Assembly (NCBI RefSeq): GCF_000009625.1
Contig: NC_002678.2
Span: forward strand, 3,938,001-4,002,000
Reading direction: 5' to 3'
DNA from: Mesorhizobium japonicum MAFF 303099
GTDB lineage: Bacteria; Pseudomonadota; Alphaproteobacteria; Rhizobiales; Rhizobiaceae
Length of the DNA stretch: 64,000 nucleotides
Of this stretch, positions 17,676-22,972 are shown in pieces. Made by a program: the position numbers and the translations under genes. The notes below the pieces were generated by a model. That model had not been told where the DNA came from and made no database searches. It saw nothing but the letters and a program-made list of their open reading frames with translations. Position 1 is the first letter of the stretch; each line of letters begins with the position of its first letter.

Positions 17676-18767
17676 TCAGGCAGCACCCTGCCGGCTTTCC
17701 AGCATGGCGCGGCGTGCCGACCGGCGCCACTCGACGGCACCGGCAAGGCCATGCAGCACGGTCTCGGTGGTCGCCCAGTCGATGCAGCCATCGGTGATGC
17801 TCTGGCCATAGACGAGCGGCTTGCCGGGCACCACGTCCTGCCGGCCGGCGACGAGATTGCTCTCGATCATCAGGCCGATGATGCGCTCGTCGCCCGCCGC
17901 CACCTGGCCGGCCACATCGGCCGCCACCTTCGGCTGGTTCTCAGGCTTCTTGGCGGAGTTGGCGTGGCTGACATCGATCATCAGCCGCGGCGCGACACCG
18001 ATGCGGGCGAGTTCGACCGAGGCCGCCTCGACGCTCGCCGCGTCGTAGTTGGGCTGAACGCCGCCGCGCAGGATGACATGGCAGTCCTCATTGCCGGTGG
18101 TGGTGGCGATGCCGCTGCGTCCGCCCTTGGTCACCGCCATGAAATGATGCGGCTGGGCGGCCGATTTCACCGCCTCGCCGGCGATCCTGAGATTGCCGTC
18201 GGTGCCGTTCTTGAAACCGACCGGGCAGGACAGGCCCGAGGCCAGCTCACGGTGGATTTGGCTTTCGGTGGTGCGCGCGCCGATGGCACCCCAGGCGACG
18301 AGGTCGGCAATGTATTGCGGCGTGGTCATGTCGAGGAATTCGGTGGCCGCCGGCAGGCCGAGATTGTTGACGGCGGAAAGCACGTTGCGTGCCATCCTGA
18401 GCCCCTTGTCGATGTTGAAGCTGCCGTCAAGGTCGGGATCGTTGATCAGGCCCTTCCAGCCGACCGTGGTGCGCGGCTTCTCGAAATACACCCGCATCAC
18501 GATCTCAAGCCGGTCGGACAGGGTCTCGCGCAGCGCCGCCAGACGGCTGGCATAGTCAACGGCCGCGACCGGATCGTGGATCGAACAGGGACCGACGACG
18601 ACAAGCAGCCGGTCGTCGGTGCCGTTCAGAATAGCGTGGATCGCATTGCGTGAGGCGCTCACGGTGCGCGTCGCCGTCAGCGTGCGCGGGATTTCCCGCA
18701 TCACCTGGTCCGGCGTGCTCAGTTCTCGGATTTCCTTGACCCGGAGGTCGTCTGTGGTGGTCAACAC
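17676..18767 (-). CDS. aroG: 3-deoxy-7-phosphoheptulonate synthase, class I (AroG type)
   Basis: Joins phosphoenolpyruvate and erythrose 4-phosphate in the first step of aromatic amino acid synthesis. The 363-residue protein is the class I AroF/G/H type: VVVGPCSIHDP near residue 55, YFEKPRTTVGWKGLINDPDLDGSFNI in pieces near 95-120, and SHANSAKKPENQP near the C-terminal third. The start is a GTG at 18767 with AGGAG 9 bases upstream. A leader peptide rich in aromatic codons and an attenuator hairpin lie upstream (18803-18961), so expression is probably set by charged aromatic tRNA levels. Confidence 0.94.
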   Translation of the reverse strand: MLTTTDDLRVKEIRELSTPDQVMREIPRTLTATRTVSASRNAIHAILNGTDDRLLVVVGPCSIHDPVAAVDYASRLAALRETLSDRLEIVMRVYFEKPRTTVGWKGLINDPDLDGSFNIDKGLRMARNVLSAVNNLGLPAATEFLDMTTPQYIADLVAWGAIGARTTESQIHRELASGLSCPVGFKNGTDGNLRIAGEAVKSAAQPHHFMAVTKGGRSGIATTTGNEDCHVILRGGVQPNYDAASVEAASVELARIGVAPRLMIDVSHANSAKKPENQPKVAADVAGQVAAGDERIIGLMIESNLVAGRQDVVPGKPLVYGQSITDGCIDWATTETVLHGLAGAVEWRRSARRAMLESRQGAA

Positions 18768-18802
18768 GGCTTTCTGCTCCTGTTAGGAGACCTGCCGGCT
18801 GA

Positions 18803-18830
18803 AACAAAAAAGCCGCCAGGTCTGGCGGCT
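18803..18830 (-). terminator. Attenuator terminator upstream of aroG
   Basis: On the minus strand AGCCGCCA and TGGCGGCT form a perfect 8-bp stem with a four-base loop, followed by six T residues and more T. It is an intrinsic terminator placed between the leader peptide and the aroG start. Its 5' arm can instead pair 8 bp with CTGGCGGC inside the leader (18877-18884), giving an antiterminator. Confidence 0.85.
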
Positions 18831-18854
18831 GTTCGGATCTTGTTGCTGCAATCT

Positions 18855-18926
18855 TCAGATCGAGCGCAATCCTCCCGCCGCCAGCGAGCTGCTAAAGTAC
18901 CAATAGGTGGCGGACAGGTGGATCAT
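18855..18926 (-). CDS. aroG leader peptide with Tyr-Trp-Tyr-Phe
   Basis: A short frame of 23 residues starting at the ATG at 18926 (26 residues if the ATG at 18935 is used) contains the run Tyr-Trp-Tyr-Phe, with three kinds of aromatic codon in four positions. A promoter-like pair (GTGACA, 17 bases, TATATG) ends 6 bases before the 18926 ATG, so the message may begin at that ATG and be leaderless, as known for the trpL leader of Sinorhizobium. There is no ribosome-binding site. The frame overlaps the first two attenuator segments: CCGCCA just before the aromatic codons and TGGCGG after them. It ends 24 bases before the terminator stem. Confidence 0.82.
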   Translation of the reverse strand: MIHLSATYWYFSSSLAAGGLRSI

Positions 18927-18932
18927 GCGGCT

Positions 18933-18961
18933 CATATAGTCGAAGCGGAGGCGTTTGTCAC
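18933..18961 (-). promoter_or_regulatory. Putative sigma-70 promoter of the aroG leader
   Basis: On the minus strand GTGACA (18961-18956), a 17-base spacer and TATATG (18938-18933) give a good -35/-10 pair. The predicted transcription start is the A of the leader ATG at 18926. Confidence 0.55.
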
Positions 18962-19176: not shown

Positions 19177-19971
19177 CTACTCCGGCGACGACCCCGCAAC
19201 ACTCTGGTCGTAGTCGACCAACGACCCGGTCATGACGCCCGATTGCGGGCTGACCATGTAGCTGATCAGCCGCGCGAGCTGGTCCGGTTTGACCAATTGG
19301 CCCATCGGTTGCGCGGCTTCGGCCTTCGCCAGCCAATCGTCCGGGGCGTCGTGCCATTTCTTTTGCACGATGTCCTCGCCCTCGGTATCCATCCAGCCGG
19401 GCAGCACGGCGTTGCAGCGGATGCGGTCGAAGCGATAGGCGTTGGCGACGTTCTTGGTCAGCGTCATCAGCGCGCCCTTGCTGGTCGAATAGGGCGTCAG
19501 GAACGACTGGCCACAATGTGCCGACATCGACAGCACGTTGACGATCGAGCCCGGCGCCTTGCGCTCCAGCAGATGGGCAACCAGTCCCTGCATCAGGAAG
19601 AAAGGTCCGCGCACATTGGTTGCGAATATCTGGTCGAAAAGCTCTTCCGAGGTTTCGACCAATGAGCCGCGTGCCGAGGTGGCGGCGGCGTTGACCAGCG
19701 CATTCAGCGTGCCGAAATGCGCGAGCGCGGTCGCCACCGCGCGCTTGCAATCCGCCACCTTCGAGACGTCGGCGCTGATGAAGATCGCGTCGACGCCGGC
19801 CTTTTTGAAGTGGGCGACGGCCTTGTCGCCCTTCTCCTGCGAACGGCCGATGAGCGCCAATGCCCGGCAGCCCTCGTCGGCCAGCGCCTCGGCGACGGCA
19901 AAGCCGATGCCTTGCGCGCCACCGGTGACGATGGCGCGTGTCTCATGATTGCGATCGGAAGATGCGCTCAT
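19177..19971 (-). CDS. SDR-family oxidoreductase, last gene of inositol transporter operon
   Basis: Short-chain dehydrogenase of 264 residues. It has the NAD(P) motif TGGAQGIG near residue 16, NAAATS near 93 and the catalytic Ser with YSTSK near residue 163. It follows the inositol dehydrogenase by 37 bases, so it probably oxidises or reduces an inositol-derived or related polyol. The exact substrate is unknown. The C-terminus is slightly extended compared with the classical 250-residue SDR. RBS and ATG lie at 19971. Confidence 0.87.
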   Translation of the reverse strand: MSASSDRNHETRAIVTGGAQGIGFAVAEALADEGCRALALIGRSQEKGDKAVAHFKKAGVDAIFISADVSKVADCKRAVATALAHFGTLNALVNAAATSARGSLVETSEELFDQIFATNVRGPFFLMQGLVAHLLERKAPGSIVNVLSMSAHCGQSFLTPYSTSKGALMTLTKNVANAYRFDRIRCNAVLPGWMDTEGEDIVQKKWHDAPDDWLAKAEAAQPMGQLVKPDQLARLISYMVSPQSGVMTGSLVDYDQSVAGSSPE

Positions 19972-20008
19972 CGTTTTGCTCCTGTGGCTTGGGCCTGGAT
20001 TCCGGTTC

Positions 20009-21004
20009 TTACTTGTCGAGACGAACGGTCTTGCCTGTTGTCGCCGACTTCAGCGCCGCATCCGCCAGCTTCAGCGCCACGAGGCCGTCGGCGCCGCTCG
20101 GCGCCGCCTTCTTGCCGGACGTCGCGGCAGCGATGAACGAGGCGATCTCGATGGCATAGGCGTCGAGATAGCGGGTCATGAAGAAATCGTGCAGCGGCGG
20201 GCGCGTATAGCCCTTCTCGTTGGCCAGTTCGATCGACACCGGCCGCTGGTTCTCGGCCGCGATCATGCCTTTCGAGCCATGCACCTCGATGCGCTGATCA
20301 TAGCCATAGGTGGCGCGGCGCGAATTGGAGATGACGGCCTGCTTGCCGGAAGCCGTCTCCAGGATGACGCTGACGCTATCGAAATCGCCGGCCTCGCCAA
20401 TCTTCTTGTCGACCAGCACCGAAGCATGCGCGGAGACCGCCACCGGCTCTTCGCCGAGCAGGAAGCGCGCCATGTCGAAATCATGAATGGTCATGTCGCG
20501 GAAAATGCCGCCCGAGCGCTTGATGTAGTCGATCGGCGGCGCGCCGGGATCGCGCGAGGTGATGGTGACCATCTCGACCGTGCCGATGGCGCCGTCGTCG
20601 ATCGCCTTGCGCACGGCGGCGAAATGCGGGTCGAAGCGGCGGTTGAAGCCGACCATCAGCGTCGCCTTGGCCTTCTCGACCACGGCCAGGCATTTCTCGA
20701 CGCGCTTAACGTTCAGGTCGATCGGCTTCTCGCAGAAGATCGCCTTGCCGGCCTTGGCGAAACGCTCGATCAGATCGGCATGGGTGTCGGTCGGCGTGCA
20801 GATGACGACGGCGTCGATGTCCTTGGATTTTTCGATGGCGTCGATGGTGCGTACCTCGGCGCCATAGGCGCTCGCCAGCTCCTTTGCCGCCTTCTCGAAG
20901 GCATCGGCCACCGCCACCAGTTTTGCATCGGGGTTGGAGCCGACGGCGCGGGCGTGGACCTTGCCGATGCGGCCGGCACCGAGGAGGGCGAAACGAACAG
21001 TCAT
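20009..21004 (-). CDS. idhA: Inositol 2-dehydrogenase
   Basis: Oxidises myo-inositol to 2-keto-myo-inositol with NAD, feeding IolE. The 331-residue Gfo/Idh/MocA protein has GAGRIGKVHARAV at the N-terminus, the catalytic EKPIDLNVKRVE near residue 95 and the GGIFRDMTIHDFDMARFL motif near 165-185 that is characteristic of IdhA/IolG. Length matches rhizobial IdhA. The ATG at 21004 has AAAGGAAA upstream; the frame from 21049 was rejected. It sits in an operon after the inositol-type ABC transporter. Confidence 0.92.
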   Translation of the reverse strand: MTVRFALLGAGRIGKVHARAVGSNPDAKLVAVADAFEKAAKELASAYGAEVRTIDAIEKSKDIDAVVICTPTDTHADLIERFAKAGKAIFCEKPIDLNVKRVEKCLAVVEKAKATLMVGFNRRFDPHFAAVRKAIDDGAIGTVEMVTITSRDPGAPPIDYIKRSGGIFRDMTIHDFDMARFLLGEEPVAVSAHASVLVDKKIGEAGDFDSVSVILETASGKQAVISNSRRATYGYDQRIEVHGSKGMIAAENQRPVSIELANEKGYTRPPLHDFFMTRYLDAYAIEIASFIAAATSGKKAAPSGADGLVALKLADAALKSATTGKTVRLDK

Positions 21005-21125
21005 GGATATTTCCTTTGAGGGATGGGTTCGAGAGCGTTGTGTCCGCACCTTCCTGTCAGGGAAAGGTGGCTGGGGTATTTTCTAGGCGCGGCAGATCGT
21101 CCCGGAACCGGGCAATCGCCTAGCC

Positions 21126-21893
21126 TCAAGCCGCGAGTTCCGCCTCCCCGGTCTTGGCGCCGGTGATGTAAGAGACAATGTCCTGACCGTCGGTATTCTC
21201 CTTGCGCAGATTGGCGACGATGCGGCCGCGCCGGAACACCACGATGCGGTCGCACAGGTCGAACACCTGGCGCATATTGTGGCTGATCAGGATCAGCGGC
21301 TCGCCATTGTCCTTCAGCGTGCGGATGATGTTTTCGACCTGCGCCGTCTCCTGCACGCCGAGTGCGGCCGTCGGCTCGTCCATGATGATCAACTTGGAAG
21401 CGAAGGTCGCCGTCCGGGCGATCGCCACGCACTGCCGCTGGCCGCCCGACATGTGGCGGATGGTGTTGGAAAGATTGGGGATCTTCACCGCCGTGCGCAC
21501 CAGTGCCGCCTCGGTCGCCTTGCGCATATATTTGCGGTCGAGGATCGAGAAGGGGCCCAGATTGAACAGCACCTTTTCGCGGCCGAGGAAAAGGTTCGAC
21601 GGCACGTCGAGATCATCGGCCAGCGCCAGGTTCTGGAACACGGTCTCGATGCCCGCGGTGCGGGCCTCGATCGGCCCGGCAAAATTCACTTCCTTGCCGT
21701 CGAACCAGATCTGGCCGCTGGTGCGCTGCTCGACAGCGGTGATCTGGCGCACGAAGGTCGACTTGCCGGCGCCATTGTCGCCCATGATGGCGACATGCTC
21801 GCCCTTGCGCAGCTCGAAATTGGCGCCTTCCAGCGCATGCACGCCGCCATAGCGCTTGGTCAGGTTTTCGGTCTTCAGGACGATGTCTGACAT
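21126..21893 (-). CDS. Inositol-type ABC transporter ATP-binding protein
   Basis: Single-domain ATPase of 255 residues that drives uptake with the permease and binding protein upstream. Walker A is GDNGAGKST near residue 38, the signature is MSGGQRQCVAIAR and Walker B is LIIMDEPTAALG. Being a single domain it resembles FrcA- and IatA-like sugar ATPases of rhizobia, unlike the double ATPase at 1128-2669. Its ATG follows the permease stop after two bases (TGACCATG), so it is translationally coupled. Confidence 0.91.
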   Translation of the reverse strand: MSDIVLKTENLTKRYGGVHALEGANFELRKGEHVAIMGDNGAGKSTFVRQITAVEQRTSGQIWFDGKEVNFAGPIEARTAGIETVFQNLALADDLDVPSNLFLGREKVLFNLGPFSILDRKYMRKATEAALVRTAVKIPNLSNTIRHMSGGQRQCVAIARTATFASKLIIMDEPTAALGVQETAQVENIIRTLKDNGEPLILISHNMRQVFDLCDRIVVFRRGRIVANLRKENTDGQDIVSYITGAKTGEAELAA

Positions 21894-21895
21894 GG

Positions 21896-22972
21896 TCAAG
21901 CCCTCAATGCCCGCAAGCGTTGGCGCCACTGGTCGAGAACGACCGCACCGACGATGATCACGCCCTTGACCATCTCCTGGTAGTAGGCGTCGAGGCGCAG
22001 GAAGGTGAAGCCGGAGATGATGACTCCGAAGATCAGCGAGCCGATCACCGTACCGACGATCGAGCCGCGGCCGCCCGACAGCGAGACGCCGCCGATGACC
22101 GCCATGGCGATGGCGTCGAGTTCATACATCACGCCCATGCCGGCCTGGGCGGTGAGGTTCTTGGAGCAGAGCACCACGGCGGCGAGCGAGGCGAGAATGC
22201 CAGCGATGACATAGACCAGGATCTTGTGGTTGGCGATCTTGATGCCGGACATGCGCGCGGCGTCCTCATTGGAGCCGATCGCGTAACAATGCTTGCCGTA
22301 GCGTGTGTAGCTCATGATGAGCTGGAACAGCACGGCCAGCGACAGGAAGATGATGACTGGCATCAGGCCTTTGCCGATCGCCGCGAAACTGTCGGTGGGA
22401 AACGAGATCGGCTGGCCCTTCGACCACCATTTGGCGATGCCGCGCGCGGTGACCATCATGCCAAGCGTGGCGATGAAGGGCGGAATGCGCGTGTAGGCGA
22501 TCAAAGAGCCATTGACCAGGCCGGCGAGCAGCCCACAGCCGATCGCCACCAGCAGCGGCACGATGACGGGCAGGTCGGTCCAGCCTTGCGCCAGGAACAT
22601 CGCCTTCGGGTTGGGATTGCCGTTGACGGTCGCCACCTGGGCGAAACTCATGGCGATCATGGCGGTGGCGCCGACGATCGAACCCGAAGACAGGTCGATG
22701 CCGCCGCAAATGATCACCTGCGTCACGCCGATGGCGATGATGCCGACGATCGACACCTGCAGGATGATGATCTGCAGGCGGGCCTCATTGAAGATCCCCG
22801 AGACGTCGCTGCGGGTGTTGAACAGGAAACTGTCGCCGAGAAAGATGCGGCCGATCGCTTCGAAGATGACGACGAGAATGACGAGCGCCAGGAAAACGTT
22901 GAATTCGGCGGGCCAGGCGCGCTTCTTCGCATCGTAGGTGAGCCCTCCGACGCCATGAGATGTCTGTGCCAA
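21896..22972 (-). CDS. Inositol-type ABC transporter permease
   Basis: Inner-membrane permease of about 358 residues with a longer N-terminal cytoplasmic part than the permease at 2724-3719. GGIDLSSGSIVGATA and the C-terminal AVIGGVSLSGGRGS are the family motifs. The best start is the TTG at 22972, with GGAGG 8 bases before it (22981-22985); no ATG in this frame is as well placed. It lies between the binding-protein gene and the ATPase and forms one operon with them. Confidence 0.9.
   Translation of the reverse strand: MAQTSHGVGGLTYDAKKRAWPAEFNVFLALVILVVIFEAIGRIFLGDSFLFNTRSDVSGIFNEARLQIIILQVSIVGIIAIGVTQVIICGGIDLSSGSIVGATAMIAMSFAQVATVNGNPNPKAMFLAQGWTDLPVIVPLLVAIGCGLLAGLVNGSLIAYTRIPPFIATLGMMVTARGIAKWWSKGQPISFPTDSFAAIGKGLMPVIIFLSLAVLFQLIMSYTRYGKHCYAIGSNEDAARMSGIKIANHKILVYVIAGILASLAAVVLCSKNLTAQAGMGVMYELDAIAMAVIGGVSLSGGRGSIVGTVIGSLIFGVIISGFTFLRLDAYYQEMVKGVIIVGAVVLDQWRQRLRALRA

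Follow-up and report, generated by a model that had tools for sequence, protein, structure and literature searches.

The region preceding aroG on the minus strand of the DNA analysed (64 kb at full length, here called the window) most probably contains a ribosome-mediated transcription attenuator, the transcript of which is predicted to start at the leader AUG or within a base or two of it; the probability of this reading, which is based on sequence comparison, is put at about 0.88. The parts of such a device are present and their layout is conserved among relatives, the strands that have to pair co-vary, the promoter keeps its spacing from the leader, and Shine-Dalgarno pairing at the leader start is rare. 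These features support the attenuator which a preliminary description of the same DNA had placed before aroG. The parts identified are the following.

18956..18961, minus strand: -35 box GTGACA, read from the sequence; register kept in 90 leaders of the genus.
18933..18938, minus strand: -10 box TATATG, which starts 12 nt before the leader ATG and ends six bases before it.
18924..18926, minus strand: start codon of the leader (ATG), at which a leaderless message is predicted to have its +1, as judged by promoter spacing and weak Shine-Dalgarno pairing.
18855..18926, minus strand: leader ORF of 23 codons, MIHLSATYWYFSSSLAAGGLRSI followed by the stop, read from the sequence; same type in relatives.
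18894..18905, minus strand: sensor codons TAT TGG TAC TTT (Tyr-Trp-Tyr-Phe); aromatic residues in 58 leaders.
18906..18925, minus strand: segment 1, which pairs with segment 2; core CCGCCA at 18908-18913 (folding and swap test).
18868..18884, minus strand: segment 2, core TGGCGG at 18883-18878 (sequence and folding).
18877..18884, minus strand: antiterminator strand CTGGCGGC, 8 nt, within segment 2; core GGCGG in three frames across species.
18822..18829, minus strand: segment 3, GCCGCCAG, 5' arm of the terminator and partner of the antiterminator (sequence, alignment and folding).
18812..18819, minus strand: segment 4, CTGGCGGC (sequence and 3:4 swap test).
18806..18811, minus strand: T run TTTTTT of the intrinsic terminator, read from the sequence.
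18777..18781, minus strand: AGGAG, likely Shine-Dalgarno sequence of aroG, by eye.
17676..18767, minus strand: aroG, encoding a class I DAHP synthase and presumed to be the gene under control, with a GTG start at 18767 (profile match).

The spacer between GTGACA and TATATG is 17 nt long, and the intrinsic terminator, which consists of an 8-bp GC-rich stem and six T, lies between the leader ORF and aroG. A second in-frame ATG occurs at 18935, inside the -10 box. The four segments, the aromatic codons and the promoter pair had been described correctly, base for base, in every coordinate and pairing. One extension concerns helix 1:2, which is present as proposed and longer than the 6 bp given for it (duplex -24.5 kcal/mol, from the third base of the ATG).

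The mechanism proposed for these parts is as follows. Since the message would be leaderless, the ribosome would have to load on its 5' end. When enough charged Phe-, Tyr- and Trp-tRNA is available, the ribosome would pass the sensor codons and cover segment 2, and when no ribosome is loaded helix 1:2 would form; with segment 2 either covered or held in 1:2, the terminator helix 3:4 would form and transcription would stop before aroG. A shortage of any one of these three amino acids would make the ribosome stall on TAT-TGG-TAC-TTT. The leading edge of a ribosome usually lies about 12 nt from its A site, and when that site is occupied by the last sensor codon it would just reach segment 2 (12 nt); segment 2, left free, would then capture segment 3 before segment 4 is made, and aroG would be transcribed. 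The actual 5' end, the stalling, the termination and the response to amino acids are thus all predictions from sequence.

The median number of aromatic residues per leader is 7 (58 leaders); Phe, Tyr and Trp occur together in 37 of the 58, and Phe and Tyr only in the other 21. The codon UUU accounts for 141 of the 192 Phe codons in these leaders, versus 121 of 528 in aroG ORFs. Counted from the first base of the final sensor codon, segment 2 starts at a distance of 12 nt in the window and of 10-14 nt in 43 of 60 leaders; the GGCGG core lies at 9-14 nt in 43 of 56. The combination of parts exceeds what chance would give. A strict rule (at least four aromatic codons in seven, an ORF end before an intrinsic terminator, and an antiterminator strand able to form 6 bp or more) gave one match on both strands of the 64-kb window, and it was satisfied by 50 of 79 aroG upstream regions; among 51 terminators in the 366 kb that surround other aroG genes it was satisfied by none. 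When the rule was relaxed to at least three aromatic codons, the figures were 51 of 79 and 3 of 51, respectively.

The start of the transcript was examined in a collection of 116 leaders, reduced to 59 non-redundant ones and to 58 after one (L186), whose match began outside a frame, had been dropped. In 38 of the 59 the end of the best -10 box lies 6-9 nt from the leader AUG; 300 rounds of shuffling gave 5.5 such leaders on average and never more than 14. Inside the genus the distance from the first base of the -10 box to the ATG is 12 nt in 83 of 90 leaders and 13 nt in 6. Shine-Dalgarno pairing of -4 kcal/mol or better was found at the leader AUG in 3 of 58 cases (shuffled mean 9.0), and at the same 32 loci it was found at 21 aroG starts versus 2 leader AUGs. 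Together with the promoter spacing, the scarcity of Shine-Dalgarno pairing leads to the prediction of a leaderless transcript, as had been put forward in the preliminary description, and the promoter-AUG distance is kept both in the genus and across classes. The same kept distance does not fit a transcript start downstream of the leader, the outcome which had been named there as refuting the proposal.

The attenuator might be real and yet not leaderless, transcription starting further upstream and the AUG, or the in-frame ATG at 18935, being reached through a 5'UTR. The 21 of 59 leaders with other promoter positions fit such an arrangement: in 13 of them the best -10 box lies 19-39 nt upstream, in six it lies at 3, 10, 10, 12, 13 and 44 nt, and in two none was found. 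The boxes at 19-39 nt belong to Oxalobacteraceae, Burkholderiaceae and two groups which stand beside them in the tree (f216 and f221). The near-constant register in the genus, the excess of boxes 6-9 nt from the AUG across classes and the scarcity of Shine-Dalgarno pairing relative to shuffled sequences all speak against this arrangement. The ATG at 18935 is present in the window, and TATATG stands there in 74 of 90 genus leaders; however, this ATG belongs to the -10 box, and TATATG is absent from the other 16. A start through a 5'UTR is therefore considered unlikely, and the start at the leader AUG is preferred.

Comparison of the regions upstream of aroG, proposed earlier for Hyphomicrobiales, revealed that the peptide type and the stems are conserved far beyond that group. 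A Phe/Tyr/Trp-rich ORF, a GGCGG antiterminator strand and a GC-rich terminator precede aroG at 60 of 80 loci of alpha-, beta- and gammaproteobacteria (79 relatives and the window; L033, with 52 nt upstream, was left out). Among the 60 are loci of Mesorhizobium, Bradyrhizobium, Devosia, Methylosinus and Phenylobacterium, as well as Bordetella, Burkholderia, Massilia, Dyella and Xanthomonas. No leader was detected at 20 of the 80 loci, including those of Erwinia, Pectobacterium and Serratia and three of Vibrionaceae; two of the 20 (L015 and L046) have a leader by eye. At L046 (Candidatus Burkholderia humilis) the leader ORF, unlike that of its relatives, extends to 48 codons through the terminator.

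A covariance model (R1) built from 32 leaders recognized one strong site in the genome analysed (108 bits, the next match scoring 24.9). Class I AroG (E<=1e-60) was found in 14 of 385 genomes of the class, and full-length leader matches of 45.5-108 bits occurred in the same 14, the cut of 45.5 bits full-length having been chosen after inspection of the list, in which the next match (39.4 bits) is a non-leader. In 13 of these genomes the leader lies directly before AroG; in the fourteenth (G332), whose low or odd match proved on reading to be a true leader, leader and AroG both lie at contig ends. Some R1 match at E<=0.01 was obtained in 127 of the 385 genomes, mostly to the terminator part of the model alone. 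The matches in G348, G367, G334 and G288 and the second full-length match of the genome analysed were read individually and are not leaders. At L147 (G311, 1501-1636) a GGCGG-type T-run site is preceded by Phe-rich sequence that has no in-frame AUG; this may be due to chance in an A+T-rich genome.

In a sample of the phylum AroG was present in 225 of 398 genomes, and 54 R1 matches (E<=1e-6) were obtained, 49 of them just upstream of AroG; by this measure 49 of the 225 AroG-bearing genomes carry the leader directly before the gene. The 45.5-bit cut is not transferable to this sample, in which matches of 39.4 (G705) and 35.7 bits (G722) lie directly before AroG. The remaining five matches consist of one bare terminator, two sites before a PheS-like ORF and two before a PheA-like ORF. 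The latter four (L219-L222, 39.8-45.2 bits) are Phe-rich leaders before ORFs which, from their protein sequences, we take to be PheS- and PheA-like, a hint of common ancestry with the pheM and pheL leaders or of strong convergence.

A quick tree of 100 AroG proteins, 82 of them with a leader (L015 and L046 being labelled by eye), contained one set (SH-aLRT 98) in which all 42 members, alphaproteobacterial or Xanthomonadales-type, have the leader. On this tree the leader label requires 7 changes versus a mean of 16.9 after shuffling, and leader and aroG seem to travel together, as far as a quick method and a tree with several long branches can indicate. Within the genus a leader DNA match was obtained in 139 of 146 genomes (own included; one match short and weak). 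Reading of the rows, in which the search expression found 88 of 89 leaders and the missed one (L281) visibly has a leader, indicated that the sequence is nearly invariant there; covariation within the genus was dropped because the leader hardly varies.

Pairing of the strands was assessed across species by a swap test, in which each strand was paired with that of another species (10000 permutations, 33 leaders less than 85% alike, relatedness being ignored). For helix 1:2 the mean energy was -17.87 kcal/mol with the own strand versus -16.67 kcal/mol after swapping, the own mean being reached in 70 of 10000 permutations; for 2:3 the values were -16.89 versus -15.85 kcal/mol (9 of 10000) and for 3:4 -18.53 versus -16.26 kcal/mol (0 of 10000). 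The control combination 1:3 was not weakened by swapping in the same 33 leaders (-5.17 versus -5.00 kcal/mol; 2202 of 10000). In this test, which ignores relatedness, 1:2, 2:3 and 3:4 co-vary, in agreement with the compensatory changes expected in the preliminary description. The consensus from RNAalifold comprised the terminator only, and 2 of 8 terminator pairs were changed on both sides. For helix 1:2 the own mean was reached in 2 of 10000 permutations with 58 leaders and in 36 of 10000 with 42 mostly leaderless-type ones. Swap support for 1:2 was missing in 16 leaders of the Oxalobacteraceae/Burkholderiaceae type (3323 of 10000), a hand-picked 5'UTR-type group that includes four leaders (L029, L040, L041 and L062) with the best -10 box outside the range of 19-39 nt upstream.

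A tentative possibility, still some way from being favoured, is that in the leaders of alphaproteobacteria, and in many of those of beta- and gammaproteobacteria, promoter placement makes the AUG the +1, and that leaderlessness is itself part of a mechanism with two inputs. These would be the charging of the aromatic tRNAs and initiation on the 5'-terminal AUG before helix 1:2 closes, a helix which in the window begins within that very codon, at its third base. Lineages of the Burkholderiaceae/Oxalobacteraceae type, with their promoter further up, would then have ceased to need 1:2, in line with the absence of swap support for it in that group.

The core of segment 2 lies in three reading frames (42, 7 and 7 of 58 leaders; 2 without core), and it is therefore the RNA, not the end of the peptide, that is conserved. 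This has a bearing on the possibility that the main product acts in trans, the terminated leader RNA or the peptide being directed at other genes and cis-attenuation being secondary. The leaderless trpL of S. meliloti is reported to yield such products, rnTrpL and peTrpL (PMC7298713), and the hardly variable leader within the genus would suit a trans-acting product; near-invariance is explained equally well by pairing in cis, and the three frames make a conserved peptide end unlikely. A trans-acting main product is thus regarded as quite improbable beside cis-attenuation of aroG.

The leader of the window, folded as a whole, adopts 1:2 and 3:4 (-48.1 kcal/mol, z -2.74), and its two parts stand out less when folded separately (z -1.65 and -1.74). 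Removal of the stretch that a stalled ribosome would cover led to a fold with 2:3 in which the terminator was gone (z -1.74). When segment 4 was included, equilibrium folding left the terminator at a probability of 0.5 or more in 53 of 58 leaders for a ribosome placed on the last sensor codon; for one placed on the first this held in 50, the other 8 falling below 0.5. The window is among the exceptions in both cases (0.01 and 0.00, respectively). With shuffled spacers the terminator fell below 0.5 in 20 of 1160 cases. Because the terminator wins at equilibrium in most leaders, the switch would have to be kinetic.

Kinetic control is generally held to operate in attenuators of this kind. A co-transcriptional version was computed after equilibrium folding had given the switch no support in most species. 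For RNA that does not yet include segment 4, the calculated capture of segment 3 by upstream RNA averaged 0.68 with a stall on the last codon (above 0.5 in 48 of 58 leaders), 0.42 with no ribosome (29 of 58) and 0.13 for a ribosome that had reached the stop codon (2 of 58), the stop-codon effect being partly trivial because less RNA is left free. Shuffled spacers gave a mean of 0.47, with 21-30 of 58 per round. A mutually exclusive 2:3 antiterminator was thus found in the window, in the swap test and in the co-transcriptional computation, and equilibrium folding was negative for it in most other species. A constitutive terminator with a spurious ORF, in which fixed read-through and not ribosome stalling sets the level of aroG, would account for the terminator retained in 53 of 58 leaders at equilibrium but is highly improbable in view of the aromatic codons and antiterminator strand absent from all 51 other terminators, the co-variation of 2:3 and the preference of the leaders for UUU.

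The aroG product was assigned to TIGR00034 (aroFGH) with 522.8 bits in a profile search; it is the single match of the AroG protein in its own genome, and the nearest named AroG is that of a Mesorhizobium ciceri locus (97% identical). A class II DAHP synthase is encoded elsewhere in the same genome (G000 C1:654909-656219, L112), so that the presumably attenuated AroG is one of two entry enzymes. The upstream neighbours on the minus strand (19177-21929) are an SDR oxidoreductase and inositol 2-dehydrogenase, with an ABC transporter ATPase recognized by eye only, and aroG does not seem to belong to any aromatic operon. In seven Mesorhizobium genomes (L299-L305) palindromic inserts of about 55-65 nt, of three kinds, occur between the aroG terminator and the Shine-Dalgarno sequence; they look like small repeat elements inserted independently.

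If the proposed attenuation is true, rhizobia and many other proteobacteria would control entry into aromatic biosynthesis by sensing the end-product tRNAs together, unlike E. coli, where aroG is controlled by TyrR. Leaderless attenuators would also be a recurring design that extends beyond the S. meliloti trp system. The leaderless and 5'UTR lineages offer a natural comparison of how ribosome loading times attenuation, and the leader is a candidate Rfam family.

At both Rfam thresholds no family reached its gathering score in the whole window; the leader scored far below the cut-offs of RNAI, Phe_leader and STnc70, the window giving 19.2 bits with Phe_leader (RF01859) versus a cut-off of 55. 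In full-text searches of an open-access library no aroG attenuator was found described for these bacteria, and the aroG leader is probably, by its sequence, a widely conserved and apparently undescribed case of a known attenuator type. The enterobacterial leaders pheL (before pheA) and pheM (before pheST) and the Phe_leader family RF01859 resemble it in having a Phe-rich leader with a GC-rich terminator, and differ in the genes that follow.

Attenuators precede pheA and trpE in E. coli (PMC11878033). In B. cenocepacia 82 short 5'UTRs were ascribed to processing or attenuation (PMC5688073), and the aroG leader may be among them. The trpL leader of S. meliloti (peTrpL/rnTrpL), likewise from an alphaproteobacterium, shares sensor codons, terminator and antiterminator with the aroG leader, and its ORF begins with an ATG that is the 5' end of the RNA, a property that for aroG is a prediction; it differs in its consecutive Trp codons, its peptide of 14 amino acids and its control of trpE(G) (PMC7298713), whereas the aroG leader has Tyr, Trp and Phe codons, precedes a DAHP synthase gene and shows its layout in three classes. 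A putative leader peptide with Phe-Tyr-Phe precedes the DAHP synthase gene aroF of C. glutamicum, an actinobacterium, the likeness being one of description only (PMC4046766). In Acholeplasma, uORFC-13-1 before aroF, also a DAHP synthase gene, has a Phe codon beside an apparent terminator; this uORF, again likened by description, has an RBS and is reported only from Acholeplasma and environmental sequences (PMC8632094). As described in these sources, the aroF genes of C. glutamicum and Acholeplasma are the DAHP-synthase precedents for the idea, and trpL of S. meliloti is the leaderless one.
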